From: a virus
Direction: 5' to 3' (one strand)
DNA length: 35,099 nt
IMG/VR virus record: IMGVR_UViG_3300043313_001605
Location: 1-35,099 of that record
In this document: positions 15,198-32,692 of the stretch, piece by piece
How positions within the stretch are numbered: the first letter of the stretch is position 1
Layout of the letters: each line of letters opens with the position of its first letter
Translations under genes and position numbers: made by a program
Notes under the pieces: model-generated
What the model saw: only the letters and a program-made list of their open reading frames with translations
Told to the model about the DNA's origin: nothing
Database searches by the model: none

Positions 15198-16306
15198 GAC
15201 ATGATTCCATTCGCCACGAGCGCCGCTCGGATAGCGACTACCTGATTGAAGAGCGCCTGCATGTGCGCGGTAGAGTCGAGGCCAAACGCGCCGGTCACAT
15301 ACGCCGCCAGCGCGCCGCCGGAGGCTACCGAGGTCTGCGCCGCCGCGCCGTTACAGCCGAACCCTGCCGCCGCCGTCACTGCGCCGGTCGGACTGACCTT
15401 GAAAACCACCGTCGGCGTAGAGGTTTGCGCTTGGATCAAATCCCCGGTTTGCCCCGATCTCCCTCTCGCGACGAGGCCAATACCGTTCGTGTGTGACGCA
15501 CCAACCACGAACGTCCCGGCCGCCCCATTGTCCTGGGCGCCGATCGCAAGCGCCTGGAGCCCTGAGTACCCAAACAAATAAAATGGAGTGATCGGCCCAA
15601 CGTCAATGCGTAACTCATTCGCCGAGGCGATGTGGATTTTGCCGACGCCAGCCACCGCGTTGAATCCGAGATTGACGTACGCGCTCTGACCAGCCACCGC
15701 GCGGAGATCCAGCGTCGCGCCGCTGCCCGCATTCGGCCCGGTCAGAACGAAGAGGTTGCCGGTTTGTTGCGCCGTCTGGACACCGGCGTTGTCGAGGAAG
15801 GCAATAGAGCTGGCCTGAATCTGGAGACTCGTCGCGTTTGTGGTGCGGTTCCATTGCACCGCGAAGGGGCGGTTCGTGGCGACGCCATCGAGGCCGTTAT
15901 ATTGGAGATAGGCCTCAGCCTTGTTCTGTCCGCTCCCGTCGTTATAGTCGGCCTCGATCGCCCACGAAATACCGGGTTCCGTTCCCACGACGCGCGTCCC
16001 ATTGAAGTTTTGGTTGTAGCCGAGATACAACGTCGGATCCGGCGTACCCGCGAAGGTGTTGAGGCCGTAACTTGCGAGAAACGGCCCCTTGAGCGCGACG
16101 GTTGCCGGGATCGTGAAACCCGCAACGCTCGGTGTGGCTGTCCACGCCGCGCCAGTGGCAGATCCGGTATCGCGCGTGAGGATGTCGCCCACGGTACCGC
16201 CAGTGAACAGCAGATCGGCATTCCAGTTCGACGCGCGGATCTTCGTCGTATCCGGCCCGTCGGCCTTCGGACTATGAAACGCGTGCTTGACGGAGACGTC
16301 GCTCAT
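15194..16306 (-). CDS. fibre-like structural protein
   Basis: The product is 370 aa. The N-terminus (MSDVSVKHAFHSPKADGPDT, then IRASNWNADLLFTGGTVGDI) is a common virion-anchoring start of phage fibres. The middle is Gly/Ala/Thr-rich and beta-structured (LDLRAVAGQSAYVNLGFNAV). The end (LFNQVVAIRAALVANGIMS) is a recurrent C-terminal helix of such proteins. It lies unusually between the head closure protein and tail completion genes. It could be a neck fibre or tail fibre, and is a candidate substrate for the nearby glycosyltransferases. Confidence 0.7.
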   Translation of the reverse strand: MSDVSVKHAFHSPKADGPDTTKIRASNWNADLLFTGGTVGDILTRDTGSATGAAWTATPSVAGFTIPATVALKGPFLASYGLNTFAGTPDPTLYLGYNQNFNGTRVVGTEPGISWAIEADYNDGSGQNKAEAYLQYNGLDGVATNRPFAVQWNRTTNATSLQIQASSIAFLDNAGVQTAQQTGNLFVLTGPNAGSGATLDLRAVAGQSAYVNLGFNAVAGVGKIHIASANELRIDVGPITPFYLFGYSGLQALAIGAQDNGAAGTFVVGASHTNGIGLVARGRSGQTGDLIQAQTSTPTVVFKVSPTGAVTAAAGFGCNGAAAQTSVASGGALAAYVTGAFGLDSTAHMQALFNQVVAIRAALVANGIMS

Positions 16307-16719
16307 CCAAACGTCCCCGTATCAAAGGCCGCGGTATCGTCCGCGATCGGCGTCTCGGCATCCACCACTTCGGAGACGAGCGCCACGGTCTCGACGCCCG
16401 CGCCTTCGGTGTCATTGACGTCGAGCACGTTGGCGGTATGCGTCTCGCCCGCCCGATCCACCCAGACAATGCGCGTGTCGGTCGTGATGCCGGGATGGAA
16501 CCGGCCCGAGAGGATGTAGGACGCCTGCGCGATGACGGTCCCGGAAAACTGCCGCTCACTGGCTCGGACACTCGCCGCCTCGATCGCGAAGCGCCACTCG
16601 GGCGGATCGAGCGGTGTGTACATCTGCGTAAAGCCCCCGTCAGTGTTCGGGATCGCAATGCCCGGATTGAACACGGACCCGACCTGCCGCAGCGTCCCGA
16701 TGTCGATCGTCACGGCCAT
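16303..16719 (-). CDS. head closure / head-tail joining protein
   Basis: The product is 138 aa, small and beta-rich, with a long segment (WRFAIEAASVRASERQFSGT) and the barrel motif ASYILSGRFHPGITTDTRIV (residues about 64-83), typical of SPP1 gp16-like joiners that plug the portal-connector channel. It overlaps the gp6-like connector by 10 bases and the fibre-like gene by ATGA. Confidence 0.75.
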   Translation of the reverse strand: MAVTIDIGTLRQVGSVFNPGIAIPNTDGGFTQMYTPLDPPEWRFAIEAASVRASERQFSGTVIAQASYILSGRFHPGITTDTRIVWVDRAGETHTANVLDVNDTEGAGVETVALVSEVVDAETPIADDTAAFDTGTFG

Positions 16720-17426
16720 GGCGGCACCAGGACCTGCGACGACCGAAGCACCTGGGACGGCAGCGCCGAATACCGGAAGCCGTCGATCATGGCTTGCACG
16801 CCGAACGGCAATTCCAGCACCTGGCCGCGCGCCTCCTGAACCGCCGACGGGAACGTGTCGAAGTGCGCCACGAGGAAGCAGAGCACGCCGCGGGCTAAGG
16901 CCGGGATGTCGTCTGGCGTGTTGCCATAGCCGCAGGTATAGCGAATGCGGACCGACCCCGTGGAACTCCCGGCGATCGGCCACACCCCCCCACCGATCGG
17001 TTCGACCCAGCCGCGCGCGGCATACGGCCCGGCGGGCGCCGAGATCCGGTACAGATTCGCGACGGGCGATCCGCCGGTGTAGGACTGCAGCACGCCCGCA
17101 TCGGTCAGGTACGAGACGCTGACGACGGACTGCAGCGGCGGGTGCGGCAGTTCGATCCGTGCACACGCCCCGCTCGCGCCGAGAAACGGAAAGGCATCGA
17201 GCCACGCTTCGCGCGTCGCCGTCAAGAGTTGCCGACCGGTCACCCGCTCGAAATACATCGCCGCCGCATCGATCCGGACGGCGGTCAGCGTGTCATCGGC
17301 CGTGCCGAGCGCGCGGATATGCTGCTTCGCGTACGCCAGCGTGAGCGCCGAGACCGGCGGCGACGCGTCGGCCATCGAACTGATCAGGGTATCGGTGAAC
17401 GACAGGGACGACGGGAACGGCATCAT
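16710..17426 (-). CDS. gp6-like head-tail connector
   Basis: The product is 238 aa. Helix-rich N-terminal part: LTLAYAKQHIRALGTADDTL, then AAAMYFERVTGRQLL, the hallmark of HK97 gp6 / phiE125 gp8 connectors. A beta domain follows (PLQSVVSVSYLTDAG, VRIRYTCGYG) with DDIPALARGVLCFLVAHFD helices. It docks under the portal. It starts by ATGA overlap at the end of the sugar-enzyme block, so the head-tail genes resume here. Confidence 0.85.
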   Translation of the reverse strand: MMPFPSSLSFTDTLISSMADASPPVSALTLAYAKQHIRALGTADDTLTAVRIDAAAMYFERVTGRQLLTATREAWLDAFPFLGASGACARIELPHPPLQSVVSVSYLTDAGVLQSYTGGSPVANLYRISAPAGPYAARGWVEPIGGGVWPIAGSSTGSVRIRYTCGYGNTPDDIPALARGVLCFLVAHFDTFPSAVQEARGQVLELPFGVQAMIDGFRYSALPSQVLRSSQVLVPPWP

Positions 17427-17956
17427 CGGTGGACCTGCGACACGTGCGCGATGACGTCCTGGCGCCACGCGAGTTCATCCGCGCCCCAGCGCATCGTCTG
17501 CAAGAAATGGAGATCGCCGCAGTCCTGTCGTTCCCCCCACTGGCCGAGCTTGGCCGGCACGTTCGGCATCAGCATCATGGGCGTGCCGACATTCCCCCAG
17601 CGCACGATCGGGTCCTGCCAGACGAGGCCCCCACTCGGATACTGCATCCGGAAGATCGTCAAGGCGGCCGGATGACGCGTGATGGCATCCGCCATGAGCG
17701 CCCGGTGCCCTGGCACATAGACGTCGTCGTCGTCGATGTGCGCAAGGTAGCGGCCACGGGCGAGCGGGGTGGCAATGTTGCGCTCGGTCGAGCCCCAGTC
17801 GCCGCCAGGCGGATTCGCGAGGTAGCGCACCGGGCCCTCGGTCCGGGTCTCGACGTTACCGATCACGAGCACCTCGTCGCCCGGCCACAGGTCGATCGAG
17901 GCCAACGTGTCCGCGAGCGAGGGACGGCCGAGCGTCGCGATGATGAACGCGATCAC
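17423..17956 (-). CDS. family 2-like glycosyltransferase
   Basis: The product is 177 aa with a GTG start in a GTGA overlap. MIAFIIATLGRPSLADTLAS begins a GT-A fold. GSTERNIATPLARGRYLAHI leads to DDDD (about 75-78), the metal- and nucleotide-sugar-binding acidic site. A Trp-rich acceptor region follows. It should transfer a sugar from a nucleotide donor. It is the last of the nine-enzyme block. Short for GT2 but complete in the catalytic half. Confidence 0.8.
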   Translation of the reverse strand: MIAFIIATLGRPSLADTLASIDLWPGDEVLVIGNVETRTEGPVRYLANPPGGDWGSTERNIATPLARGRYLAHIDDDDVYVPGHRALMADAITRHPAALTIFRMQYPSGGLVWQDPIVRWGNVGTPMMLMPNVPAKLGQWGERQDCGDLHFLQTMRWGADELAWRQDVIAHVSQVHR

Positions 17957-18522
17957 GCCACCGCTCCGAGCGCGGCTTCGTGCCGCTGATAGTCGGGGAT
18001 GTAATCGACCGGCTGCTGAAGAATGCCGGAGAACGAGGGCCGTTGCACGGCGACAAACGGCCACGCCACGACACAGCGCAGCCCGCAATCCCGTCCGAGC
18101 GACACGTCATAGGGCTGCACCGCGTCGAGCGCCTTCGCGTAGCCCGAGGCAAAGTAGACGACACAGTGCGCGGAGTGGAACGCCGACACCGCGATCAGGC
18201 CGGCGCGCACCAGGCGCGCGTCGTAGGTGAGGGTGCACCCGCCCGCGAGCACGTCGTAGCCGTGCGCCTGCGCCCAGTCCGCGTCCGCCGTCCAGCGGAC
18301 GAGATCGAAGGCCGGTGTAAACGCGCAGTCATCCTCGAGCACCCACAGCCGATCCACCCCGAGCACCATCGCGTCTCGGATCGCCGTCTTGTGACTCTCG
18401 AGACAGCCGTCCTCGCCGCGGGGCGTCTGCGCGCCGATCTGAACGTGGAGATCCGGCACCGCGGCGTGCAGGGCCGTGAGATCCCGCCCCAGGTGCGGGG
18501 CAAACAACACTACGCTGCGCAT
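17953..18522 (-). CDS. family 25-like glycosyltransferase
   Basis: The product is 189 aa. GCLESHKTAIRDAMVLGVDR (about 39-58) and LWVLEDDCAFTP (about 59-70) are the two signature blocks of GT25 (LPS-type) enzymes, including the ExD-like metal site. AHCVVYFASGYAKALDA supplies the later acceptor-side helix. It overlaps its upstream neighbour by 13 bases and the downstream one by GTGA. It probably adds galactose or a related sugar; the donor cannot be predicted. Confidence 0.8.
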   Translation of the reverse strand: MRSVVLFAPHLGRDLTALHAAVPDLHVQIGAQTPRGEDGCLESHKTAIRDAMVLGVDRLWVLEDDCAFTPAFDLVRWTADADWAQAHGYDVLAGGCTLTYDARLVRAGLIAVSAFHSAHCVVYFASGYAKALDAVQPYDVSLGRDCGLRCVVAWPFVAVQRPSFSGILQQPVDYIPDYQRHEAALGAVA

Positions 18523-19289
18523 CGTCGCGGCTCCACATTGAAGTACGCACTGCCCACAGGATCGGCCGTGACCTTCGGCGCGCCGTCGTCCACTTGCTCG
18601 AAGAGTTGGCCGTACAACTCCCAGTCCCGCGGCGTGCCGTTGCCCGATTGGCAGGCTTCGCGGTAGAGCCGCAGACCGTACGTATGCGCGAGGTTCGTGA
18701 GGATCGCCTGCTCAGCGCGATGCTCGATGAACCGGACGTCTTCGGTGCCGAGCACGGACGGATCGAAGGTGTTCGCGAACGGGTTGACAGCGTAGGTCAC
18801 CCACTCCATGAGAAATTGCGTCGTGCGCCACGGGCCGTTCTGAACGACCAGGAACCGCGCGACGCCGGCCGGCGCGCCGGACGACATCGGGGATCCCATT
18901 ACCGCGTAACAGTCGCGTTTACACCACTCGATCTGCTGGTGCCCTTCCGACGCGAACAGCATGATGCCGCCGTCCGTGACGCACTGATCGAACAGCATGC
19001 CGAACGGCGCGATCGGCACTGTGTCCGCATCCGTGTAGAGCACCAGGTCGCCATCCCCGAGCGTGGACAGCGCGTGCCAGATCACGAACGGCTTCCACGC
19101 GTACCACCCGAACCCGCGCTTGTGCGGATGATCCCAGAGCCACCGGTTCTGCTGATAGAACGGTTGCGTGAGCAGCCAGCGATCGTCGTACACACGCACG
19201 GCGTCCGCCCCGAGCTCCACGCCACGCGCCACGATCTGCTGCGTCGTCGCGTCATAGGGCGCGCCACTGAAGGTGATGTACAGCTTCAT
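18510..19289 (-). CDS. glycosyltransferase, GT-A type with DAD motif
   Basis: The product is 259 aa. KRGFGWYAWKPFVIWHAL (about 57-74) and DLVLYTDADTVPI (about 81-93) are typical of sugar transferases that take a nucleotide sugar through a DxD site. C-terminal segments with TEDVRFIEHRAEQAILTNLA fit the fold. It overlaps its neighbours by ATGA and 13 bases. Resembles uncharacterised viral and bacterial glycosyltransferases; acceptor unknown. Confidence 0.78.
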   Translation of the reverse strand: MKLYITFSGAPYDATTQQIVARGVELGADAVRVYDDRWLLTQPFYQQNRWLWDHPHKRGFGWYAWKPFVIWHALSTLGDGDLVLYTDADTVPIAPFGMLFDQCVTDGGIMLFASEGHQQIEWCKRDCYAVMGSPMSSGAPAGVARFLVVQNGPWRTTQFLMEWVTYAVNPFANTFDPSVLGTEDVRFIEHRAEQAILTNLAHTYGLRLYREACQSGNGTPRDWELYGQLFEQVDDGAPKVTADPVGSAYFNVEPRRCAA

Positions 19290-20065
19290 GGCCGCGCTTC
19301 CACCGTCAAGGGAAACTCCTGATGACAACTCGCCGGACGCACGCCGACGAGCGGCGCGAGATCGATCTGCTGGCCCTGTTCCCAGACCGTCAGCAACTGT
19401 TCCGGCGTCGCGGCCGGATCGCCAGCGCAGCGATTGGCCCAGTCCTGCTGGACGCGATTCCATGGGACGTTGACGATCCGCGCCTCGTAGTAGCAGGTGC
19501 CCATCCGTGTCAGGAACGCTGGCGCGAACCGTTGCAATGCCGCTTCTAAGGTGTTCGGGGAGGTAAACGGAATCGCGGCGATCAGGGGCCGCAGCTCCGC
19601 GAGATCGAACACATGGCCGTCGAGCGAGAGGGGGTAGCCCCAATCCCCCTCGCCGTCGGCCCAGCGCCACGTCACCAGCCCCGCGTCGATCGTCACCCGG
19701 GGCATGCCCTGCCGCCGCGCCGTCGGGTAGCAATCGGTGAGATGCAACCCGAGGCGCAAACTCAGGCCCGGCATCTCCGTCACCGCCCACGGCCGAATGA
19801 AGACGAGATCGTCCACGAAGAACACAACCGAGCCGTCAGACGGGAGACACGCCAGCACGGCCGCCTTGAACGACCCGCCCATTTCCTCGTGCGCCACTGC
19901 CCACGGATGCCGCAGGAAGACCTCGTCGTACGCCTGGCGATGCCGGATCGAGGTCGCCAGCCAGATCACGTCGACGCGTGGCCGCGGGGTGACGAAGCGC
20001 GCGACGGAGCGCAGGAAGGCGTCAAGTTGCAGCGCCCGGTCCTTCGAGAAGACGAGCGCCGTCAT
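19286..20065 (-). CDS. glycosyltransferase-like protein (GT-A, VDD motif)
   Basis: The product is 259 aa. MTALVFSKDRALQLDAFLRS is a start often seen in phage and bacterial GT-A proteins. VVFFVDDLVFIRPW (about 80-93) carries the acidic nucleotide-sugar site. The remainder has WGYPLSLDGHVFDLAELRPL and IVNVPWNRVQQDW. It starts by ATGA overlap after a methyltransferase. No membrane helix, so it would act in the cytoplasm on virion proteins or nucleotide-linked sugars. Confidence 0.72.
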   Translation of the reverse strand: MTALVFSKDRALQLDAFLRSVARFVTPRPRVDVIWLATSIRHRQAYDEVFLRHPWAVAHEEMGGSFKAAVLACLPSDGSVVFFVDDLVFIRPWAVTEMPGLSLRLGLHLTDCYPTARRQGMPRVTIDAGLVTWRWADGEGDWGYPLSLDGHVFDLAELRPLIAAIPFTSPNTLEAALQRFAPAFLTRMGTCYYEARIVNVPWNRVQQDWANRCAGDPAATPEQLLTVWEQGQQIDLAPLVGVRPASCHQEFPLTVEARP

Positions 20066-20814
20066 CGCCGCCTCCACAACGCATGGGGATGCCCGCCAAT
20101 TCCGAGGCTCTCTTCGACTTGCAACGTGTAGCGGTCCGCCAGCAGGGATCGAAAGTCTGGTTCCCCGGGCTCGCAGGTCCGATAGGCCGATCCGTCGACC
20201 GTGCGCCCGTGCGAGACCGTGAACAGGAACGGCACGGTCAGGTTGTCCAGCACGTCGAGCCAGTGCGTAATCTGCGCCCGCGAACATTCGTTCCAACTGT
20301 GGATGTTGATCGCCAGCGTCGGCCGGAGCGTCGGCAGCGCCGCACGGAGGCCCGCGACATCGAGGACGCGCACGGTCGGCGCGTGCCGCTGCGTATAGGT
20401 GCGGCAAACCTCGACCGAAATAGGGACGGCGTCCACGCAGGTGTACGAGCGGACGAGCGGCGCCAGCATCACCGCTAAGCGCCCGTAGCCGGCCCCGATG
20501 TCGAGCACATCCAACGTCCCGAGCGAACCGAGCGCGCGCCGCAGAAACCCGATCTCGACGTTGCCGTCCACCCACATGCGCGTGACGGGACCGATCGCCG
20601 TGCCGAACGGGCGGCCACCATACGGCACATCGCGCACCGTCCCCGCGACATCCTCGGGCGCGCCGAGCGACGTCACGACGGCCGCGACCTCGTCGGGATC
20701 GACACTGTCCTGCTCCACAAAGACGCCCTGTCTCGCAAAGTTCGGCAACGCGGCGGCGACCTGCGCCTGCCACGTCTCCCAGTAGGCGAGTTCGGTCAGC
20801 GGATCACCGATCAT
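20062..20814 (-). CDS. SAM-dependent methyltransferase, sugar O-methyltransferase type
   Basis: The product is 250 aa. Residues about 101-115 (LDVLDIGAGYGRLAV) form SAM motif I and YTCVDAVPISVEVCRTY motif II. INIHSWNECSRAQITHWLD is a later block that I associate with putative sugar O-methyltransferases. The first 80 residues (ELAYWETWQAQVAAALPNFA) form a helical lid. It sits between two sugar enzymes with ATGA overlaps on both sides, suggesting that it caps a glycan by O-methylation. Confidence 0.8.
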   Translation of the reverse strand: MIGDPLTELAYWETWQAQVAAALPNFARQGVFVEQDSVDPDEVAAVVTSLGAPEDVAGTVRDVPYGGRPFGTAIGPVTRMWVDGNVEIGFLRRALGSLGTLDVLDIGAGYGRLAVMLAPLVRSYTCVDAVPISVEVCRTYTQRHAPTVRVLDVAGLRAALPTLRPTLAINIHSWNECSRAQITHWLDVLDNLTVPFLFTVSHGRTVDGSAYRTCEPGEPDFRSLLADRYTLQVEESLGIGGHPHALWRRR

Positions 20815-21374
20815 TGCTTCACGCCCCAGATCAGGCGTCCCCGATCACTCCCTGGCGTAGACGTCCGCTCGAACGCCTGGTGATAGTGCGCCTCGAACGC
20901 ATCCCACGCGGCGGTCACGCCAAGACGGGGATCGCCGCTGACGTCGTCGTAGTCATCGCCGGCAATCAGCCCGCCGACCTCGAGGAACGGCCACCACTGC
21001 TCGAGGTCCAACGCGCAGCCCTCGCGCGTGTGATCGGCATCGACATAGAGATAGTCGATCGCGCCCACCCACTGCGCCGCCGCATCGGCCGTCGTGGCCT
21101 GGATCATTCCGATCACGTCACTGACGCCGGCCGCGACGACATTGTCGGCAAACGTCTGCGCATCGACCTCGGTCGGTCCGACCTGCCAGCGATCCACGCA
21201 GGTGAGGTGCCCGCCCCACGATCGAATCAGTCGGGCCACCGCAATCGCGGAACAGCCTCGGTTCGAGCCGAGCTCGACGCAACGCATTGGTCGATACCGC
21301 TCCAGCAGCGCGAGGATTTGTTCCCCGTGGTGGAACCAGTTCGGCTCGGGCAACCCGTTGAGTTCGGGTCTCAT
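20811..21374 (-). CDS. SAM-dependent methyltransferase (Methyltransf_24-like)
   Basis: The product is 187 aa. CVELGSNRGCSAIAVARLI (about 32-50) is motif I, LTCVDRW motif II. IDYLYVDADHTREGCALDLE followed by GGLIAGDDYDDV is the class I pattern of cephalosporin-hydroxylase/Methyltransf_24-type enzymes that often modify sugars. The start at 21374 is fixed by the ATGA overlap. It is the second methyltransferase of the block. Confidence 0.82.
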   Translation of the reverse strand: MRPELNGLPEPNWFHHGEQILALLERYRPMRCVELGSNRGCSAIAVARLIRSWGGHLTCVDRWQVGPTEVDAQTFADNVVAAGVSDVIGMIQATTADAAAQWVGAIDYLYVDADHTREGCALDLEQWWPFLEVGGLIAGDDYDDVSGDPRLGVTAAWDAFEAHYHQAFERTSTPGSDRGRLIWGVKQ

Positions 21375-21994
21375 GCGAGGGCCTCGACGAGGGCCGGATA
21401 GGCCTCGAGCCGAAATACGAAGGTCGCCGCATCGACGTGCTGCCAGCGCACCCCGCGGGCCATCAACGCGGCGATCAGTTCCCAGTCCCACGAGAACACG
21501 CCGCGCGCTGGCAGCTCGTCGCCGAAGTGGTCGCGCAACATCGACCGTCGAAAGAGTGGCTGCCCGAGGTCGATCCCGGCGCCCACCGGCGGGCAGTAGC
21601 GCAACTCTTTCCGCCCGGCATAGAGGCAGCTCGAATACACGAAACCGAGGCCAGGATCCGCGTCGAGCGCCGCGACCATCGGACCGAAGTGGTCCGGCAA
21701 AAAGGCGTTATCGTCCGACAAAAAGCAGACATACTCGCCAGCCGATGCGCGCAAACCCTCAACGGCCGGCGAATGTCCCCAGTCGTTTGTGCGCGATGCT
21801 AGGTTGATGTACTTGGAAACGCTGGGCGCCGCACTTACGAGGTGCTCGATCTCGGCGACGATGTGCGGCGCGGGCGCATCGGACACCACGATCTGCTCAA
21901 GGTCTCGGTGCTTTAGGTGGTCGACAGAGCGCAGACACCGCTTGAGGCAGTCGACGCGATCGTAAACCGTCGTTACAATGCTCACGCGTGGCAT
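21371..21994 (-). CDS. family 2 glycosyltransferase
   Basis: The product is 207 aa. MPRVSIVTTVYDRVDCLKRC opens the GT-A nucleotide-binding fold. VEGLRASAGEYVCFLSDDN (about 78-96) carries the SDD metal site. Later FSWDWELIAALMARGVRWQH is the acceptor-side helix with the W-D-W-E cluster. It is the first minus-strand gene downstream of the HNH cassette insertion, which separates it from the CgeB-like enzyme. Its start region overlaps the divergent cassette promoter, and only a weak Shine-Dalgarno site remains. Confidence 0.88.
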   Translation of the reverse strand: MPRVSIVTTVYDRVDCLKRCLRSVDHLKHRDLEQIVVSDAPAPHIVAEIEHLVSAAPSVSKYINLASRTNDWGHSPAVEGLRASAGEYVCFLSDDNAFLPDHFGPMVAALDADPGLGFVYSSCLYAGRKELRYCPPVGAGIDLGQPLFRRSMLRDHFGDELPARGVFSWDWELIAALMARGVRWQHVDAATFVFRLEAYPALVEALA

Positions 21995-22005
21995 GGGATA
22001 CCCTG

Positions 22006-22014
22006 TGGTATACT
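22006..22014 (+). promoter_or_regulatory. extended -10 promoter of HNH cassette, leaderless
   Basis: TGGTATACT gives a TG-N extension plus TATACT (22009-22014). The ATG at 22021 follows after six bases, so the transcript should begin at or next to the start codon. The 19 bases 22002-22020 match 17 of 19 bases at 986-1004. No -35 box is clear. Confidence 0.6.
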
Positions 22015-22020
22015 CGTCAA

Positions 22021-22464
22021 ATGCGTAAGCGCCCTAAGCAACTCGTGAGACTCTGGCGAGATGTGCCAGGTAGCGAACGCGTTGACCGGGACTTCATTGA
22101 GGGGTGCGGCGGGGCAAACCCCGAGCGCTGGACCACAGCGAAGGACCCGGAGAAAGCAGCATCGGAGTGGGTTGAGCGGAAACTGAGTGCGCTTGACCGC
22201 CCTGACGCGTGCGCGGCGGCCATACGCTGGGGCGGAACGTCCCAGAAATGGAAACAATGTAGCCAGCGGGTCGCACCAGGCTATCAGTTGTGTTTCCACC
22301 ACGGAGGCGCGCATCCACCAAAGCCCGTGTACATCAAAAAGTCGGCTGACCCACAATGGGTTACAGGCCGTCTTAAACAGAGACGTGCAAGCCTGCTTCG
22401 GAAACGACAGGAGATCGACAAGATGATCGCTAAAGTTGAAGATCTTCTGGCGTCTTATGACTAA
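22021..22464 (+). CDS. Cys/His (HGG-type) zinc-binding protein of HNH cassette
   Basis: The product is 147 aa from ATG 22021 (an earlier in-frame ATG at 21988 precedes the promoter and is unlikely). The centre has DACAAAIRWGG followed by KQCSQRVAPGYQLCFHHGG (about 78-96), matching the C-x-x-x-V-x-G-x-x-x-C-x-x-HGG knuckle common in small phage proteins, presumably zinc-binding. The C-terminus is a basic coiled coil (RRASLLRKRQEIDKMIAKVE). First gene of a three-gene plus-strand operon ending in an HNH nuclease; may bind DNA. Confidence 0.7.
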   Translation: MRKRPKQLVRLWRDVPGSERVDRDFIEGCGGANPERWTTAKDPEKAASEWVERKLSALDRPDACAAAIRWGGTSQKWKQCSQRVAPGYQLCFHHGGAHPPKPVYIKKSADPQWVTGRLKQRRASLLRKRQEIDKMIAKVEDLLASYD

Positions 22465-22588
22465 GCAGATGATCTCCTTCACCGACCCGCAACGGAAGTT
22501 CTTGATCCGTGAAGCCAAGCGGCTCGGCATCTCCATCGCGGAACTCGTCAGGCGCATCATTGACGCGCACATCGAGGCCACGAAATGA
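22457..22588 (+). CDS. ribbon-helix-helix mini-regulator
   Basis: The product is 43 aa. A short strand (MISFTDPQRKF) is followed by two helices (LIREAKRLGIS and IAELVRRIIDAH), the ribbon-helix-helix layout of CopG/Arc-type DNA-binding proteins. It overlaps the first cassette gene by eight bases and the HNH gene by ATGA, which supports translation and a common operon. It could repress the cassette promoter; this is inference. Confidence 0.72.
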   Translation: MTKQMISFTDPQRKFLIREAKRLGISIAELVRRIIDAHIEATK

Positions 22589-23031
22589 AGGACGTAGCAA
22601 CTCGCTTCTGGGAGAAGGTCGACAAGGACGGCCCTGTGTCGACGCACCGCCCAGATCTTGGGCCGTGCTGGCTGTGGACCGCGTCCCTCATTGGCCGTGG
22701 CTACGGGCAATTCGGCGTAGGACGGCGCACAGAAGGCAACGTTGTGGCTCACAGGTGGGCCTATGAGTCGGTCCACGGTCCACTCCTGCCAGGATTCGAA
22801 CTCGACCATCTCTGCCGCGTGCGCCGGTGCGTCCGGCCGAGCCATCTCGAGCCTGTCACACACCGAGTCAACGTGCTTCGCGGCGAGAGCCTTAGCGCGC
22901 GTCGCTCCAAGCAGACTCACTGCAAGTACGGCCACGCCTTCACGCCTGAAAACACGTACTGGCGCGGCAGGAGACGCGTTTGCCGGACGTGCGCCGCCGA
23001 TTGGCAGCGGAGTCAGCGGGCTTGCCACTGA
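22585..23031 (+). CDS. HNH endonuclease
   Basis: The product is 148 aa. It starts FWEKVDKDG, then GPCWLWTASLIGRGYGQFGV, AHRWAYESVHGPL, LDHLCRVRRCVRPSHLEPVT (the HNH core with LDHLC and the HLEPVT end), and a C-terminal zinc knuckle (HCKYGH...CRTC). This is the common free-standing phage HNH type that cuts DNA and promotes spread of its own gene. It is the third gene of the plus-strand cassette and is inserted against the direction of the late operon. It ends 14 bases before the CgeB-like gene. Confidence 0.9.
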   Translation: MKDVATRFWEKVDKDGPVSTHRPDLGPCWLWTASLIGRGYGQFGVGRRTEGNVVAHRWAYESVHGPLLPGFELDHLCRVRRCVRPSHLEPVTHRVNVLRGESLSARRSKQTHCKYGHAFTPENTYWRGRRRVCRTCAADWQRSQRACH

Positions 23032-23045
23032 ATGCTTGCTGACGA

Positions 23046-23966
23046 TCATGCGGCGACCCCTTCCCCGATCCCGCACGTCGTCAGCACGGTCTGCAGCCGC
23101 GCCCCGTAGGTGTGACCAGCCAGCCGCGCCGCGCACTGCTTTCGAATCGCCTCGCCCTGGTCGGACGCATCGAGCAGGCTGGCGACGAGCGCGACGCACT
23201 CCGCCTCCGTGCGAAACGTTGGGAGTTCCGGCACGAGCGTGTCCACCTCCGGCCGCCATTCACTGACGACGTTCGCGCCGCAGGCGAGCGCTTCATACAC
23301 ACGCGGGTTGAGCGCCGTCGCCACGGTCTGCCGCGCGTTGAAGTGATGGATCTGGCGGAAGACGTTCAGGATGATCCGGGTCTGCTGATAGAGCCGCGCG
23401 GTCTGGGCCGGCGCGATGTTGCCGGAGAGACAGCGGCGCTGGACCTGCGGATCGGCCCACGCGCCCCCGACGACGTAATCGAGCAGATCCGCGTCCGCGA
23501 GGGCGGAGAGATACCGATCCCGCGTTTGGTTCCCGCCCCCAATAAAGCCCACGCGGTGCATCTTCTCGACGTCACGCGCGTGATGGACGTGCGGGTCGTA
23601 GCAGACCGGCAAATAGGACGCATGAAGATGCCGATCGAGCGTCGCGCGATCGTTCACGAAGACGTAATCGAACTGCGTCGAGAACCGCGCGCAGTCGTCC
23701 ACCTCATAAGGCTCGTCAAGAAGCCAGATCGCCGAGCGGAGGCCGAAGCCACGCACGTTCGCAAAGCGTTGGCAGAACCGCCGACCGTGGACGACGAACA
23801 GGAGATCCGGCGCGAAGGCCGCGATCTGGTCCTGCAGGTTCGGCGCGTCCCACCCTGCATGCGCATAGGCGATCCCGAGATCCGCGGCCGCGTGGACGAG
23901 CCCCTGCGTGAAGACGTCCCCGCACGAGAGGAATTGATAATCCACGCCGAAGACGCGCGCTGTCAT
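23046..23966 (-). CDS. CgeB-like family 1 glycosyltransferase
   Basis: The product is 306 aa, a GT-B fold. The N-terminal domain contains FAPDLLFVVHGRRF and SAIWLLDEPYEVDD. The C-terminal domain has VGFIGGGNQTRDRYLSALAD and the key donor-binding block LNVFRQIHHFNARQTVATA followed by LNPRVYEALACGANVVSEW. This is the CgeB (spore-coat glycan) type. It probably glycosylates virion proteins. Start fixed by an ATGA overlap; its stop (TCATG at 23046) would allow an ATGA coupling to the next gene, now interrupted by the HNH cassette. Confidence 0.87.
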   Translation of the reverse strand: MTARVFGVDYQFLSCGDVFTQGLVHAAADLGIAYAHAGWDAPNLQDQIAAFAPDLLFVVHGRRFCQRFANVRGFGLRSAIWLLDEPYEVDDCARFSTQFDYVFVNDRATLDRHLHASYLPVCYDPHVHHARDVEKMHRVGFIGGGNQTRDRYLSALADADLLDYVVGGAWADPQVQRRCLSGNIAPAQTARLYQQTRIILNVFRQIHHFNARQTVATALNPRVYEALACGANVVSEWRPEVDTLVPELPTFRTEAECVALVASLLDASDQGEAIRKQCAARLAGHTYGARLQTVLTTCGIGEGVAA

Positions 23967-24244
23967 CGGTCGCACCGTTTCAGGACGAGCAGCTTCGCGC
24001 CGTCGGCTTCGATGTGCACTTCGATTAACTCGACCAGTTCAGACGTATGCTCCGGCCGTTCGTAGATCTGTCTAAGTAACCCCACTGAGAAGCGCATCCG
24101 ATCGCCGACTTCGACACGCGGCTTCACTGGGACACTCGTTAAGTCGCCTTCTCGGACTTCACGGTTAGGCGGAAAGACCGGCGGCTTCACGACTTCTGTT
24201 GTCGCCTTGCCACCCGTCGTACCGACGACGTCCAGATCCTTCAT
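23963..24244 (-). CDS. small protein in sugar-enzyme block, unknown function
   Basis: The product is 93 aa starting by ATGA overlap. The N-terminal half is Val/Pro/Lys-rich (VVKPPVFPPNREVREGDL). The C-terminal half is helix then strand (RMRFSVGLLRQIYER, ELVELIEVHIEADGAKLLVL). No recognised motif. Its strict coupling between the MptE-like and CgeB-like enzymes suggests it assists them, but this is context only. Confidence 0.6.
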   Translation of the reverse strand: MKDLDVVGTTGGKATTEVVKPPVFPPNREVREGDLTSVPVKPRVEVGDRMRFSVGLLRQIYERPEHTSELVELIEVHIEADGAKLLVLKRCDR

Positions 24245-24858
24245 GCGGCCCGCTCCAGTCGCGCGATCTCGTCTTCGAGCGGCGCGCGTGGAAAGACGCC
24301 TAGCGCGGTCCGGCGCGAGCAATTCACAACTTCGATGTTCAGCGCCGCGAGCGGCTCGACGAGACTCGGGAACGCCTCGATCATCGCGCCGTACGGCGAG
24401 GGTTGCCGATCGGGATGATCGCCGTGCCAATGGGTCCGCCCATCGGGCGCCGGACTCAAGTCGTAGCCAAGGAGCAGGATCCGCGCCGCGCCGAGATGGA
24501 CGGCCAGGCCGATGGCTTGGTACCCACTGTTGAAGCCAGTGCGGAGTCCGGTCGGCTCGAGCTCGAGGCCGAGCGGCCCGGTGTTCTGCAACACCTGGAC
24601 GTCGGGCCACGTCACTGGGTCAGACGCGGCGATCGAATACTTCGGACCGTGGAACGCCGGCGCGCCGTGTTCCCAGTCCCACCATTTCGCGTCGGCGGCA
24701 TAGAGCACGTCCGCCCACGGCGCGAGCTTGTAACTGCTGTTGATGGCGATGACGCGCGCGCGGCCGCGCACGAGGTCAACATCCTCTGGCGTGAGACTGG
24801 GACCGCTCCCGATCAGGACGAACGTCTCGCCTGGCCAGAGACGCGGGACCGTCGTCAC
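24241..24858 (-). CDS. DUF115/MptE-like Rossmann protein, putative sugar transferase
   Basis: The product is 205 aa with a GTG start in a GTGA overlap. GETFVLIGSGPSLTPEDVDL (about 10-29) is the glycine-rich start of the 6-hydroxymethylpterin kinase-like/DUF115 fold, which also occurs in flagellin (Maf-type) glycosyltransferases. ADVLYAADAKWWDWEHGAPA, TGFNSGYQAIGLAVHLGA and ILLLGYDLSP complete the pattern. Because it stands directly after collagen-like genes and before glycosyltransferases, sugar transfer to a virion protein is the best guess. First enzyme of the block. Confidence 0.65.
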   Translation of the reverse strand: MTTVPRLWPGETFVLIGSGPSLTPEDVDLVRGRARVIAINSSYKLAPWADVLYAADAKWWDWEHGAPAFHGPKYSIAASDPVTWPDVQVLQNTGPLGLELEPTGLRTGFNSGYQAIGLAVHLGAARILLLGYDLSPAPDGRTHWHGDHPDRQPSPYGAMIEAFPSLVEPLAALNIEVVNCSRRTALGVFPRAPLEDEIARLERAA

Positions 24859-25442
24859 GAGAAGTTCCTCCCCGGATCGCCCTTGTCGCCCTTCGGTCCT
24901 GACGGCCCGGCCGGTCCGAGTCGCCCGTTGGTCCCATCACGCCCGTGTTTCACCGACAGTCGCCACGCATCGTTGAGGCCGCCATCTTCCGGTTTCTCGT
25001 TGACGGTGTCCCGCTGCGCGATCCAGAAGGACCCACCAAACGTCACCCCGTCGCCTTTTTGATAGGCCGTGCCGAACACGAACACGCCCCGATCGAGAAT
25101 CTGGTAGAGCTTGATTTCGCGGCCGAGCGGCTTCCCGGTCGTCGCGTTGCGAAACACGAGCGTGCGCTCGTCCAGTTGCAGCACTTCGATGTCATCGATC
25201 GTGAGCGTTCCGTCGCGGCCGTTCGAGCCGTCCTTCCCGTTCACGCCGTCCGTGCCCTTCTCACCCCGCGCCCCGTCGCGCCCAGGCACTCCTGGCTGGC
25301 CGTCTCGCCCTGGCTTGCCTTCCGGCCCGGCGGGTCCAACGGCGCCGTCAAGCCCGCGCTCCTTCGCCTGGACGAACGCCACGTGATCGCGGAGGACCGG
25401 CGCCAGGCCGCGCACGATCGCCGTCAAGTCCTGGAGTCTCAT
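24855..25442 (-). CDS. collagen-like virion protein with C-terminal binding module
   Basis: The product is 195 aa. A helical start (RLQDLTAIVRGLAPVLRDHV) precedes about 14 G-x-y triplets (GPAGPEGKPGRDGQPG and onward, residues about 34-78). Next a beta module (VLQLDERTLVFRN) and GVFVFGTAYQKGDGVTFGGS with FWIAQRDTV resemble carbohydrate-binding modules of family 5/12. A second short G-x-y run ends the protein. It probably forms trimeric fibres. It begins by ATGA overlap and is followed directly by sugar enzymes, so it is a prime candidate for glycosylation. Confidence 0.75.
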   Translation of the reverse strand: MRLQDLTAIVRGLAPVLRDHVAFVQAKERGLDGAVGPAGPEGKPGRDGQPGVPGRDGARGEKGTDGVNGKDGSNGRDGTLTIDDIEVLQLDERTLVFRNATTGKPLGREIKLYQILDRGVFVFGTAYQKGDGVTFGGSFWIAQRDTVNEKPEDGGLNDAWRLSVKHGRDGTNGRLGPAGPSGPKGDKGDPGRNFS

Positions 25443-26398
25443 GCGTCCAATGCCTCCAGGAGGAGCCACAGATCCTCATCGTCCGCCTGCTGCTGCTGTA
25501 GATCCGTCCACGCTGTATCGAGAGCGTCCGGCGGCGTGACGGGCCGCCACTCGGGTTCATCGGTGCCCTCGGCGGTCATCCGACCGACGGCGGCACGGGT
25601 CGTAACGCCACGCGGCGCGACGGAGGCGCCGGCCGATCCCGCGGACACGCCGACCGCGGCGTGCGCTGCGACGCCAGCCGGAGAGGCCGAGCCGTCTGCG
25701 GCGACGTCGACCGTGCCGACCGTCGCGCCCGTCGCGACGCCGTCCGGCGTGGCTGAGGCTGATCCCGACGCGGTCGCGCGCCCGACAGACGCATGCGCCG
25801 ACACACCCGCCGGGGCGGCGACGGCGTGGACCCGTGTCACCCGACGCTGGCGGGGCGGCAGCAGCGGCGCCACAGCGCCGGGGTCGTCCAACACGGTCGG
25901 CACCGAGACGATCGCGGTGCCGACCGACGCGACCATCGCGACGCCCTCCGGCGTGGCCGTCCCATTCAGCGGATCGCCCGTCGCCGTCGCGTCGCCGACC
26001 GCGCTGAGCATCGAGACACCAAGGGGATCGGCCACGCCACCGCCGCTGGCGATCGCGGTCCCGACGGCGCCGATGACGACGACCCCCGTGGGCACCGCCA
26101 GGCCATCACCCATGCCTGTCGGCGTGCCCACCGCACTGGCGCTCGAGACGCCCGCCGGTGCCGCGACGCTCGCCCCGCTGGCGACGGCGGTGCCCACCGA
26201 AGCCGCCATGGCCACACCGGCCGGCGCCGTGATCGCGTCGCCGGTGGCGATCGCGGTCCCGACAGCCGCGGTGACGGCGACGCCGGCCGGAGTTGCTGTC
26301 GCATCGGCCGCGCCTGGTGCCGCCGTCACGCCCTGTGGAATGACATGGAACAGTTTCCGCGTGAGCGTTTCGCCGCCGGGACTTAGACGGATCGGCAT
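25439..26398 (-). CDS. GV-repeat structural protein (ten degenerate repeats)
   Basis: The product is 319 aa. Ten copies of a 20-23-residue unit, consensus P-x-G-V-x-x-x-A-x-V-G-x-A-x-A-x-G, run from about residue 33 to 287 with one break (DDPGAVAPLLPPRQRRV). Examples are APAGVAMAASVGTAVASG and ATPDGVATGATVGTVDVA. Each unit looks like two beta strands around Gly-Val turns, as in fibrous virion proteins with a repeated GAVGTVTV theme. The C-terminus is acidic and helical (LQQQQADDEDLWLLLEAL). It lies between small structural proteins and the collagen-like protein. Function inferred as fibre or capsid decoration. Confidence 0.7.
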   Translation of the reverse strand: MPIRLSPGGETLTRKLFHVIPQGVTAAPGAADATATPAGVAVTAAVGTAIATGDAITAPAGVAMAASVGTAVASGASVAAPAGVSSASAVGTPTGMGDGLAVPTGVVVIGAVGTAIASGGGVADPLGVSMLSAVGDATATGDPLNGTATPEGVAMVASVGTAIVSVPTVLDDPGAVAPLLPPRQRRVTRVHAVAAPAGVSAHASVGRATASGSASATPDGVATGATVGTVDVAADGSASPAGVAAHAAVGVSAGSAGASVAPRGVTTRAAVGRMTAEGTDEPEWRPVTPPDALDTAWTDLQQQQADDEDLWLLLEALDA

Positions 26399-26399
26399 C

Positions 26400-26939
26400 T
26401 CAGTTCAGGCTCTGCCAGATTGCGAAGTGTGGAATCACCGAGGGCGCGACCGAGAACGTCACGCCGATCCAGAGGGCGCTCGCCACGGTGGTGTCCACAG
26501 AGACGCTGGCCGTGCTGCTGCAGACAACCGTCGTGGCGCTCGACGCCGTCGCCACCGCCCCGTTCGAAGTCCAGACCCCGTGCCCGGTCGCGGTGGAATT
26601 CGCGCCCGCCGCGATCCCGATCGTGCGGAACTGGAGCCAATATTCGAAGACAAACGGCGCGAGCGTGATGCTCGGCACGTAGTTCTGCGTGGGCGACGTG
26701 CCCAGCGCGACCCCGCCAATCACGAGCCCGAACCGCGGGGTGATGATCAGCGTGCCCGCAGTACCCGTCGTGCACGTGCCGCCGACGGTGAGCTTGTAGA
26801 CCTTCCCGGCCTTCGGTTCATTCGCCGGGATCGGCGTGAAGAGCGTCGGCACGAGCACGGTTTCGCTCGTGGCCGTGATCGTCGGCAATGCCGCCGACGG
26901 GGGATCCATCGTCAGATCGGCGACGTACTGGCGACTCAC
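26400..26939 (-). CDS. virion structural protein, unknown type
   Basis: The product is 179 aa. It is beta-rich and nearly without charged clusters: GKVYKLTVGGTCTTGTAGTL, NYVPSITLAPFVFEYWLQFR, then IGIAAGANSTATGHGVW. Such composition is usual for small virion surface proteins. It sits immediately before the GV-repeat gene with no spacer. No family is recognised. Confidence 0.68.
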   Translation of the reverse strand: MSRQYVADLTMDPPSAALPTITATSETVLVPTLFTPIPANEPKAGKVYKLTVGGTCTTGTAGTLIITPRFGLVIGGVALGTSPTQNYVPSITLAPFVFEYWLQFRTIGIAAGANSTATGHGVWTSNGAVATASSATTVVCSSTASVSVDTTVASALWIGVTFSVAPSVIPHFAIWQSLN

Positions 26940-28077: not shown

Positions 28078-28085
28078 GGGATAAT
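28077..28085 (+). promoter_or_regulatory. extended -10 promoter of second HNH gene
   Basis: TGGGATAAT has a TG-N extension and GATAAT (28080-28085), 11 bases before the ATG at 28097. This leaves a leader of only a few bases and no Shine-Dalgarno site. It overlaps a short palindrome, GACAT...ATGTC, at 28073-28088. Confidence 0.45.
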
Positions 28086-28096
28086 GTCCAGTGATA

Positions 28097-28714
28097 ATGA
28101 GTCGGTTCTGTAACACCTGCCGGACCGAGAAACCGACTGCTGACTTCTACCAGAGTTACAAAACACAATGCAGGGCGTGCCTGAAAGCAAAGGCTCTGAA
28201 GACTCGCGACGAGAAACGTCGCTATTTGGCCGAATGGAGACGTCGCAATCCTGGCGCCCACGCGGCTTGGTATCAAAAGAACAAGACTCGGAAGCGGGAC
28301 TACTGGAAGAAATGGCGCGAGGCCAACAAGGAACATTGCCGCGCCGAATATCGGCGATGGGCGAAGGCGAACCCCGACAGGATCAACGCGCTGATCGCGA
28401 AGCGGACCGCCGCGAGAATAAAGGCCACACCATCGTGGGCGAACCACGACGCCATCAGAGCGATCTACCGTGAGGCCCTTCGATTGACGCGCGAAACCGG
28501 CGTCAGGCACGAGGTCGATCACGTCGTGCCACTGAGAAGCTCCGTCGTGTGCGGACTCCACGTTGAAGCCAACCTGCAAATCCTCACGAGCGCCGCCAAC
28601 AAGGCGAAGTCGAATCAGCTCCATGCAGCGCAGAGCTCCATTCCGGCCTGTTCCGCTCCGCGCTCGAGTGATTTCGCGAATTGCGTGACGACTTCCTTTG
28701 AAGTCGGCCCCTGA
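28097..28714 (+). CDS. HNH endonuclease with N-terminal zinc finger
   Basis: The product is 205 aa (GTG at 28091 is an alternative start). Two CxxC pairs (C5/C8 and C25/C28: FCNTC, CRACLKAK) form a zinc finger. A basic Trp/Lys-rich helical middle follows (RDYWKKWREANKEHCRAEY). The HNH core HEVDHVVPLRSSVVCG then HVEANLQILTSAANKAKSN completes the type found as free-standing phage homing nucleases. It lies opposite to the late operon between portal and collagen-like genes. Its last 33 codons are antisense to the portal 3' end, so the natural end was probably extended by insertion. Confidence 0.88.
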   Translation: MSRFCNTCRTEKPTADFYQSYKTQCRACLKAKALKTRDEKRRYLAEWRRRNPGAHAAWYQKNKTRKRDYWKKWREANKEHCRAEYRRWAKANPDRINALIAKRTAARIKATPSWANHDAIRAIYREALRLTRETGVRHEVDHVVPLRSSVVCGLHVEANLQILTSAANKAKSNQLHAAQSSIPACSAPRSSDFANCVTTSFEVGP

Positions 28715-30021
28715 TCTTCCGGCGGCGAGACCGGTGGGAGTGCAATGGGTATCGGCCCGACACCCGGAGGCGGGCCGGCCTTATCGCGCTCGTTCAGCGC
28801 GGCGAGACTCCAATTTTGCTGCTGAAGATACGGCGTGTCCCCGCCCTTCACCGGCTTGAGGTTGAACTTGGCGCGCGCTTCGTTCGGTGAGTAGACGCCG
28901 CCGACCACGCCCTTCGTCGCCTCGTCCATCTTCTGCACCGAGTCCATTCGCTTGAGGGCCTCGAGATCGAACTCGACCTCGAGGCGGGTCTTGAGCTCGA
29001 GCCCTTCGGTGAGACACAGTTCGAGCGACTCGAAGTGGATCTGGAGACAGTCCCCGTAATACTCCTGGCCGAGCGCCTCGACGTTGTTATAGGACGGCAG
29101 CGCCCCGACGTTGACCTTGTAGCCGGGCACGTGGAGCACCGCACAGATCTTCTCGTCGTCCCATTTCAACTGATCGATCAACTGCGCGTCCACGAACGAC
29201 ATCGCGGTGGGCTTCTCGAATTTCAGGCCGCCGCCGAGCACCGCGACCTTGCCGATGTTCTCGGGCCCGGTGTAATTCGCCGTCCACCAGTCTTCGAGTT
29301 TCTTCTGATCGTCTGGACCGATCACGCCTGGCGCTGTGAGGATGCCGCCGGTCTGCGAGCCCGAGCGAAACAACTTGGTCGCGTTGTTCTGGATCGTGAG
29401 CGCCTGCATCGCTGCGTGGCCGCAGGCGTAGACCGGCGACACGCCACAGAGCGGGTGATACGGCGCATACGCGATGTCATGGATGATCTCGCGCGCCGGC
29501 ACGACGATGGACGCCTCGCCGATCCCAGCCAGCACATCTTGCTGGAGCGCATAGTAGACATCGCCGTTCGGACCGACCAGCGGCTTGACGCGCGTCGGAT
29601 CGAGCAGATAGAGGGCCGTGACGACGCCGCGCGCATCGCGCTCTTTCAGCGCGTAGGTGTTCCCGCGCGTCAGCTTCGAGAGCATCCAGTAGGTGTAGAA
29701 CTGGATCCGGTTCTGGTAGTGATTCGGACGGCGGAGCACGGGCGAGTACGCGGGGTTCTCGATCTCGGTCTCGATCCCGTTCGCGTCTTCCTCGACGAGC
29801 ATGGGGCGACATTTTGCGACGTCACCACTAATCAGCGTGACGCACGACCAAAACGTCGGATGCGCGAGCGCGTCTTCGACGGGCGTCTGGATGTGGCGTT
29901 GCCAGGCGCCGGCAAACGACTCGCGGATGACCGGCCACCAGCCGTAGGACGAGGGGACGTGCGTAATGAAATCGCCGCCGGCCGCCTTCGTCCGCGTGAT
30001 CTCAAACCCGAAGATCTTCAT
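28615..30021 (-). CDS. HK97-type portal protein
   Basis: The product is 468 aa. Hallmarks in order are VIRESFAGAWQ (about 30-40), HPTFWSCVTLISGDVAKCRP, RNTYAL-type segment (LTRGNTYALKERD), PAREIIHDIAYAPYHPLCGV, PGVIGPDDQKKLEDWW, YNNVEALGQEYYGDCLQIHF and a Pro-rich end. It forms the dodecameric DNA gate at one capsid vertex. It starts in a TGATG overlap with the 66-aa gene. The order is unusual: the portal comes after the capsid gene rather than between terminase and protease. Confidence 0.95.
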   Translation of the reverse strand: MKIFGFEITRTKAAGGDFITHVPSSYGWWPVIRESFAGAWQRHIQTPVEDALAHPTFWSCVTLISGDVAKCRPMLVEEDANGIETEIENPAYSPVLRRPNHYQNRIQFYTYWMLSKLTRGNTYALKERDARGVVTALYLLDPTRVKPLVGPNGDVYYALQQDVLAGIGEASIVVPAREIIHDIAYAPYHPLCGVSPVYACGHAAMQALTIQNNATKLFRSGSQTGGILTAPGVIGPDDQKKLEDWWTANYTGPENIGKVAVLGGGLKFEKPTAMSFVDAQLIDQLKWDDEKICAVLHVPGYKVNVGALPSYNNVEALGQEYYGDCLQIHFESLELCLTEGLELKTRLEVEFDLEALKRMDSVQKMDEATKGVVGGVYSPNEARAKFNLKPVKGGDTPYLQQQNWSLAALNERDKAGPPPGVGPIPIALPPVSPPEDQGPTSKEVVTQFAKSLERGAEQAGMELCAAWS

Positions 30022-30221
30022 CAGTCTTCGGCCTTCATGTCGCGGCGCTGGTAGGGCGTGCGCTTGCGCGGTTCGTCGTCGAGCACGCGCTCGGCCGCGC
30101 CCACGGACACCAGCACGTCGCCCGCATCCTGCGTCGCCTCGAAGATCTCCCCGGGTTGCTGTCCCTGCGGACATTCCTTCAGCGCGCGGTACTTGTGGAG
30201 GGTGAAATTGTCGAACGCCAT
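30021..30221 (-). CDS. small protein before portal, unknown function
   Basis: The product is 66 aa with AGGGGAG ahead of the ATG and a TGATG coupling to the portal gene. It reads FTLHKYRALKECPQGQQPGE, then VLVSVGAAERVLDDEPRKR, an SH3-like small beta fold by pattern. Such small proteins between capsid and portal may be head decoration or connector parts; no family recognised. Confidence 0.65.
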   Translation of the reverse strand: MAFDNFTLHKYRALKECPQGQQPGEIFEATQDAGDVLVSVGAAERVLDDEPRKRTPYQRRDMKAED

Positions 30222-32462: not shown

Positions 32463-32503
32463 TCTGCCCGAAAGTCTGCAAGACAGTCGGGGAAGCGCCC
32501 TAC

Positions 32504-32692
32504 TTAAGATTTCTTTTCGTCGAGGCTCGTGCGGAGCGTGTGCCGAATCCACTCCGGCATCGTCATGCGCTCTCGCTGGGCGGCCTGACACACGTCCGCC
32601 AGTTGCTTCGACGGCAGCTTGACGCTGATCTGGGCCGACGGATCGTCGGCATCGAGCGGGGGGTGTCCGGACGGACGCTTCGACTCAGCCAT
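32504..32692 (-). CDS. ribbon-helix-helix-like protein between terminase and capsid
   Basis: The product is 62 aa from ATG 32692 behind GGAAGGAGAG; a longer frame from 32737 lacks such a site. Residues about 22-60 read SAQISVKLPSKQLADVCQAA then RERMTMPEWIRHTLRTSLDE, a strand plus two helices as in CopG/Arc-type DNA-binding proteins. It overlaps the terminase end by eight bases. It may regulate late genes or assist packaging; unusual at this position. Confidence 0.72.
   Translation of the reverse strand: MAESKRPSGHPPLDADDPSAQISVKLPSKQLADVCQAAQRERMTMPEWIRHTLRTSLDEKKS

Follow-up and report, generated by a model that had tools for sequence, protein, structure and literature searches.

What function could nine predicted glycosyltransferases and methyltransferases serve in the midst of the head genes of a virus? 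The question is raised by IMG/VR record IMGVR_UViG_3300043313_001605, a 35,099-base sequence of a soil phage classed as a linear fragment and analyzed here over its full length (henceforth referred to as the window). Its late genes lie on the minus strand and comprise terminase, a protease-capsid fusion, portal, GV-repeat and collagen-like proteins, the enzyme block, head-tail adaptor, Neck1, tail terminator, major tail protein and tape measure. The block itself (24858-17423) consists of nine enzyme genes that run head to tail among the head genes as a single translationally coupled series: a DUF115/Maf-like protein, a CgeB-like protein, two GT2-like, two GT-A-like and one GT25-like glycosyltransferase (GT), and two methyltransferases. 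This enzyme island is real, maintained, widespread and variable, and it is probably, at roughly two chances in three, a virion-glycosylation island.

Read 5' to 3' on the minus strand, the genes are DUF115, a 93-aa open reading frame (ORF), the CgeB-like gene, GT2a, MT1, MT2, GTAv, GTAd, the GT25-like gene and GT2b, followed by the connector from 17426. Adjacent genes overlap by 4 bases at every junction except two, namely the GTAd/GT25 junction, where the overlap is 13 bases if translation starts at the ATG at 18522 or 1 base if it starts at the GTG at 18510, and the CgeB/GT2a junction, which is occupied by an HNH cassette. Each of the nine enzymes has a relative at 55–77% identity with a ratio of nonsynonymous to synonymous differences (pN/pS) of 0.22–0.45, and orthologous blocks are present in other records. 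From these identities and ratios all nine are judged to be under purifying selection, and thus to be maintained genes rather than chance ORFs. The nine enzymes and the head genes do not differ in GC content at third codon positions (GC3), so by composition the block is no foreign insert.

A preliminary description of this DNA, made from the sequence alone, had already delimited the nine-enzyme block; its coordinates, strand and coupling were confirmed, with the 93-aa ORF (24244-23963) to be added. The proposed enzyme classes fared less evenly. Six are backed by database matches, strongly for CgeB, GT2a, MT1 and DUF115 (the last by phrog_4603) and marginally for MT2 and GT2b; curated cut-offs were passed by CgeB, GT2a and MT1, while MT2, GT2b and DUF115 scored just or somewhat under their Pfam cut-offs. 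The GT25 match is weak, and GTAv and GTAd were assigned by motif and context. MT1 also matched the rhamnosyl O-methyltransferase model NF045824 (1.7e-4, under cut-off), with 6g7d as its nearest PDB entry (1.8e-4), and MT2 matched TIGR04371, a putative sugar O-methyltransferase model (5.6e-7, under cut-off). A single-sequence viral scan with GTAv gave no matches, and two-row alignments of GTAv and GTAd recovered 3–4 loci each.

The setting of the block was compared across loci fetched by portal similarity (80), by DUF115 similarity (~80) and from bacterial genomes and metagenome-assembled genomes (MAGs; 40), in which genes were called and the families of the window were mapped; individual loci are designated by L numbers. 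The common gene order is terminase, capsid, portal, collagen-like, DUF115, enzymes and connector, and 109 of 118 DUF115 loci include a portal, capsid or neck gene. Across 43 related records, 38 of 40 GT2 matches fall within the operon, in the stretch bounded by collagen-like/DUF115 on one side and by the connector or neck on the other; one of the other two lies between terL and capsid, also among virion genes, and one lies outside. The slot makes up ~13% of a record. Of 18 CgeB-like matches, 16 are in the same operon, and four of these occupy or adjoin a second slot that extends from tail terminator to major tail protein. This second GT slot, beside the tail tube gene, was observed in L118, L120, L125 and L036, where CgeB-like genes lie between the tail terminator or neck and the major tail protein.

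A survey of slot contents drew on 75 bounded slots and their 105 non-redundant proteins, among which the most frequent Pfam matches were to GT2, GT9, GT92, GT-D, FkbM and other methyltransferases, radical SAM-B12 enzymes and GDP-mannose dehydratase/epimerase. Methyltransferases, GTs, radical SAM/B12 enzymes or sugar-nucleotide enzymes of the short-chain dehydrogenase/reductase (SDR) type account for 23 of the 25 commonest families, the exceptions being a fibre protein and a DNA methylase with one member each. No published account of this DUF115-anchored slot was found in the literature searched.

In the lineage of the window the DUF115-CgeB-GT2a end and the GT2b end are constant and the middle is exchanged; in most relatives that possess it GT2b directly precedes the connector, as it does in the window. 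The middle set is MT1-MT2-GTAv-GTAd-GT25 in the window, and GT2, methyltransferase, radical SAM-B12 enzyme and another GT2-like gene in L011, whose portal is 85% identical. The MT1, GTAv, GTAd, MT2, GT25 and GT2b set of the window recurs at 48–67% identity in L024 (portal 67% identical), where it lies between terminase and capsid and DUF115-CgeB-GT2a remain in the usual slot. Much of this set is also present in L214, whose head is non-homologous, between the major head protein and the tail chaperone, and ahead of a Neck1 gene in L209. Sequence comparison indicates that the module passes horizontally between phages while remaining among virion genes; the middle modules are of GT-A/methyltransferase, radical SAM-B12 and other types. 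B12-binding radical SAM enzymes of ~530 aa were observed inside the head-operon sugar block of L011 (18455-20047), L015 (15588-17186) and L126 (10955-12559), and perhaps C-methylate a sugar or a protein.

The anchor of the slot, DUF115, is a 205-aa single domain whose match to phrog_4603 covers residues 16–200; GPSL, NSG and HWHG are among its conserved motifs. Searches of PDB sequences with the single protein and with a profile returned nothing credible, so a fold search was needed. The AlphaFold2 (AF2) model had a mean predicted local distance difference test score (pLDDT) of 96.5, and its one confident match to a solved structure was the sialyltransferase CstII (1ro7, probability 0.99), with the other listed matches at 0.6 or below; on this model the protein has a CstII/GT42-like fold. 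The Maf domain that glycosylates Ser/Thr of flagellin is a PF01973 member and resembles CstII (PMC11339370). Structure prediction, which the preliminary description had suggested as a check, was also applied to GTAv, but the AF2 model (three-row alignment) reached a pLDDT of 44 and was too poor to use, so the GT-A fold of that protein is putative.

DUF115 was found in all 17 GT2-bearing records, and GT2 in none of 12 DUF115-negative records (Fisher p 0.001, uncorrected for relatedness). DUF115 is sometimes the sole slot gene, and in L136 (5817-8648) GT2 and DUF115 domains are fused in one 944-aa open frame. In Pseudomonas, Caulobacter and Klebsiella phages these genes are labeled in databases as alpha-2,3-sialyltransferase or hypothetical.

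Under the virion-glycosylation reading, soluble GTs and sugar methyltransferases would form a variable cassette within the late operon, at its head-neck slot, a placement by which the enzymes would be made together with the particle proteins. DUF115, as a small GT42/Maf-like enzyme, would act in the cytoplasm and attach the initial sugar to Ser/Thr residues of at least one structural protein. The glycan may be extended first by the CgeB-like enzyme and GT2a and afterwards by the exchangeable middle set together with GT2b, and MT1 and MT2, judging from their weak family matches, may cap or decorate it by O-methylation. Precedent would place the glycan on the capsid and/or tail tube, not on the collagen-like or GV proteins in particular: virion glycosylation in Corndogvirus (cluster O) mycobacteriophages is established experimentally, and the enzymes are reported to modify capsid and tail tube (Freeman et al. 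2023, as cited in PMC11600133 and PMC12363180). Because constant ends with a variable middle resemble serotype switching, the likely benefit would be a changeable particle surface, either antigenic or adsorption-related.

A broader proposal, which we put at somewhat less than an even chance, is that many proteobacterial phages carry a serotype-like virion glycan locus, in which a fixed slot, a Maf-like primer, constant flanking GTs and a recombining middle module cause related phages to differ in their sugar coat. Self-glycosylation would then be a common, quickly diversifying trait of Proteobacteria phages, a candidate priming enzyme would be open to deletion in laboratory phages such as D3, and the alpha-2,3-sialyltransferase or hypothetical annotation of phage DUF115 genes would be corrected.

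The preliminary description had favored the collagen-like or GV-repeat protein as the specific carrier of the glycan. The genes of both adjoin the block and are coupled to it, the GV protein is Thr/Ser-rich, and in DUF115-bearing phages the C-terminal domain is commonly followed by a collagen tail of at least 8 triplets. Co-occurrence in relatives told against this acceptor: no collagen-like gene was detected in 40 DUF115-bearing loci with a visible portal, and among the 118 loci of the DUF115 set GV repeats turned up in a single further genome. The collagen-like gene is moreover a near-universal portal neighbor in this portal lineage, with or without GTs and even where the slot is empty, and the relation between collagen tail length and DUF115 presence is weak, unclean and confounded by relatedness. 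On account of the loci with no detected collagen-like gene, the rarity of GV repeats and the collagen-like genes beside empty slots, neither protein appears to be a required acceptor, and a glycan dedicated to either is quite unlikely. Capsid C-terminal Ser plus Thr (S+T) content is slightly higher in GT-bearing phages, a small difference confounded by relatedness. The enzymes might instead remodel the host envelope, whether lipopolysaccharide (LPS), capsule or exopolysaccharide, late in infection and thereby block superinfection or re-adsorption of progeny to debris. Pelagimyophages have a hypervariable, GT-rich island within their structural region, which its authors read in this way (PMC7029224), and several enzyme classes of the slot (GT2, GT9, GT25, LicD, PIG-L and sugar dehydratase) are those typically encoded by LPS and capsule loci. 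However, a hydropathy scan of the nine enzymes revealed no transmembrane segments, the block contains no flippase, polymerase or ligase, its constant part is a Maf-like enzyme, and the GTs follow head and neck genes even in L214 with its unrelated head. A membrane-spanning GT or flippase with the cassette, as in gtr-type seroconversion or O-antigen modification, was accordingly not found. Envelope remodeling is therefore considered unlikely.

Glycosylation of modified bases in phage DNA is scarcely credible here. Hypermodification of DNA by viral GTs is known (Pyle et al. 2024, as cited in PMC12619734) and the block does contain methyltransferases, but these match sugar O-methyltransferase models, under cut-off, and a thymidylate-synthase homologue (PF00303) is absent from the window and from all close GT-bearing relatives, with matches in two distant records only; this absence is incomplete because the records are fragments. 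A search for Tet/JBP (PF12851) was run without a positive control and carries no weight. The earlier preference for the virion over DNA was accordingly upheld by the near-confinement of GT genes to the head-neck-tail operon, also with a non-homologous head, by the Corndogvirus analogue and by the lack of a thymidylate-synthase-type gene. It is also highly improbable that the slot does no more than tolerate insertions of unrelated cargo that has no shared function. Its contents do vary, it can be empty, and an HNH cassette has been inserted in the window, yet the Pfam-matched slot proteins are overwhelmingly sugar- or methyl-transfer enzymes, the nine window enzymes show purifying selection, gene order is kept at both ends and the DUF115-GT2 fusion exists.

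Several points weigh against virion glycosylation. The glycan, its sugars and its acceptor are deduced from genes, and the functions of GTAv, GTAd and GT25 are weakly assigned from motifs and context. DUF115 scored 26.9 bits against PF01973 (4.6e-6), short of the gathering score of 34.6, and its CstII match is partial (TMq 0.49, E 0.01). PF01973 includes pterin kinases too. The DUF115-negative slot of L064 holds LicD and a methyltransferase. Envelope-directed GTs can be soluble, so the lack of transmembrane segments does not exclude envelope modification. The window enzymes gave no significant match to genes 32–35 of the Corndogvirus Dylan, and for want of detectable homology that precedent is only positional. 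The glycan interpretation of the preliminary description thus stands in part, with the virion retained over DNA, the collagen-like/GV target given up and the glycan itself predicted from genes. Coordinates and principal matches of the features are collected in Table 1.

Table 1 Enzyme block, inserted cassette and neighboring structural genes of the window.
Feature	Coordinates	Strand	Evidence
Head-tail adaptor (gp6-like connector), right slot border	16710..17426	-	phrog_442 1.5e-20
GT2b, GT2-like glycosyltransferase, GTG start	17423..17956	-	PF00535 23.2 vs cut-off 23.3 bits; 74% identical in L011
GT25-like glycosyltransferase	17953..18522	-	PF01755 0.013; phrog_2835 glucosyltransferase 0.005; 67% in L214
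GTAd, probable GT-A glycosyltransferase	18510..19289	-	YTDADT motif, no family match; 66–68% in L024, L209, L211
GTAv, probable GT-A glycosyltransferase	19286..20065	-	FFVDD motif, no family match; 57% in L024, 54% in L214
MT2, S-adenosylmethionine (SAM) methyltransferase, putative sugar O-methyltransferase	20062..20814	-	PF13649 8e-6; 55% in L024
MT1, SAM methyltransferase, sugar O-methyltransferase-like	20811..21374	-	PF13578 7e-22
GT2a, GT2 glycosyltransferase	21371..21994	-	PF00535 1.9e-14; 77% in L015/L098
Inserted HNH cassette, 1.05 kb, outside glycan function	22021..23031	+	HNH_3 PF13392 1.8e-13
CgeB-like GT-B glycosyltransferase	23046..23966	-	PF13524 2.7e-18; 72% in L011
93-aa ORF in chain, absent from the preliminary list	23963..24244	-	no Pfam, PHROG or NCBIfam match
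DUF115/MptE-like (Maf_flag10-like), proposed priming protein O-glycosyltransferase	24241..24858	-	phrog_4603 1.4e-46
Collagen-like protein, C-terminal domain, left slot border	24855..25442	-	PF01391 2.8e-14; relatives adjoin portal
GV-repeat protein, candidate acceptor only	25439..26398	-	no family; S+T 17%; rare in relatives
Ser/Thr-rich (25%) 179-aa protein, candidate acceptor only	26400..26939	-	no relatives found
Portal protein	28615..30024	-	PF04860 2.6e-76
Prohead protease and major capsid fusion	30483..32591	-	PF05065, PF04586; phrog_617 2e-111

The HNH cassette contains three ORFs, encoding a Cys/His-motif protein (22021-22464), a 43-aa ribbon-helix-helix (RHH)-like protein (22457-22588) and the HNH_3 endonuclease (22585-23031). 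It sits exactly at the CgeB/GT2a ATGA junction with both genes intact, and the junction is uninterrupted in L011, L013, L092, L018 and L024. The L119 slot contains an HNH protein 47% identical to that of the window, and homing/HNH endonuclease genes repeatedly adjoin phage GT blocks (L214 2427-3395; Che8 gene 112). The 93-aa ORF has 59% identity across half its length in L120, and its GC3 is lower.

The C-terminal half of the collagen-like protein is a domain of ~60 residues with a GD.VT.GGS.W.A motif, chitin-binding-module-like by eye, that also occurs fused to portals (phrog_1289, phrog_2271); this fusion elsewhere suggests that the collagen-like protein is located at the head vertex. In the lineage of the window the gene seems split: a collagen piece adjoins the portal (27715-28116, minus strand), and another copy, which carries the C-terminal domain, adjoins DUF115 (24855-25442, minus strand). 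The 26400-26939 and GV genes lie between the two, and the same arrangement was seen in L011/L012, L019 and L020/L095. A 370-aa fibre-like protein (15194-16306, minus strand) between the head closure and Neck1 genes has no family and no relatives among the fetched loci.

The host is probably alphaproteobacterial, as indicated by the DUF115 prophages, an IS1-type transposase and the portal of a Rhizobium phage. The DUF115-bearing prophages in bacterial genomes and MAGs are mostly from Alphaproteobacteria; cultured members with DUF115 in a prophage head operon include Phenylobacterium sp. J426, Ensifer sp. MPMI2T and Roseicyclus marinus. A Rhizobium phage portal is one of the nearest to that of the window. 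The IS1-family transposase gene (1351-2202, plus strand) lies near the contig end, with nearest copies in Mesorhizobium and Hoeflea. These observations make the actinobacteriophage setting evoked in the preliminary description doubtful; the likeness to actinobacteriophages is functional only. Against 50,697 phage records, megablast of the block gave no match, and tblastn of CgeB, GTAv, GTAd and MT1 gave merely 2–5 distant records apiece, so cultured phages offer little context beyond DUF115.

In the literature searched, experimental virion glycosylation of tailed phages was found only for a few mycobacteriophages. Like the window, the pelagimyophage host recognition cluster is a GT-rich hypervariable island in a phage structural region; it differs in belonging to T4-like myophages, in being a large tail-fibre island read as host O-chain modification, and in that no DUF115-anchored slot is described for it (PMC7029224). 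Che8 (cluster F) resembles the window in having several coupled GTs that act on virion proteins and an HNH gene nearby, but its genes lie at the far right genome end, outside the head operon, and no sequence relation was seen. The Maf flagellin O-glycosyltransferases share the PF01973-type domain, the CstII-like fold and proposed cytoplasmic Ser/Thr glycosylation, whereas the window protein is a single domain under the Pfam cut-off, in a setting without flagellin.

Pseudomonas phages D3 and PAJU2 and Klebsiella phage Eowyn carry DUF115 of the same family (phrog_4603, 36–37% identity) with a GT-like gene, GT9-like when read by eye, and a methyltransferase gene. In D3 and PAJU2 this set lies inside the head-neck operon as in the window; the neighbors in Eowyn are unannotated. 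Unlike the window, these phages have three genes only, with other GT families and a predicted function, annotated as alpha-2,3-sialyltransferase. In Corndogvirus Dylan, genes 32–35 encode an O-methyltransferase and three GTs, ATGA-coupled in the order portal, O-methyltransferase, GTs, protease and capsid. Coupled GT and O-methyltransferase-like genes within the head operon are thus common to both, and a slot GT of the relative L015 matches Dylan 34 at 4e-4. The window differs in its nine enzymes rather than four, its DUF115/CgeB anchor, its kinship with phages of Proteobacteria and a glycan predicted from genes alone, and by this comparison it is best regarded as an analogue of the Corndogvirus system, not a member by descent.

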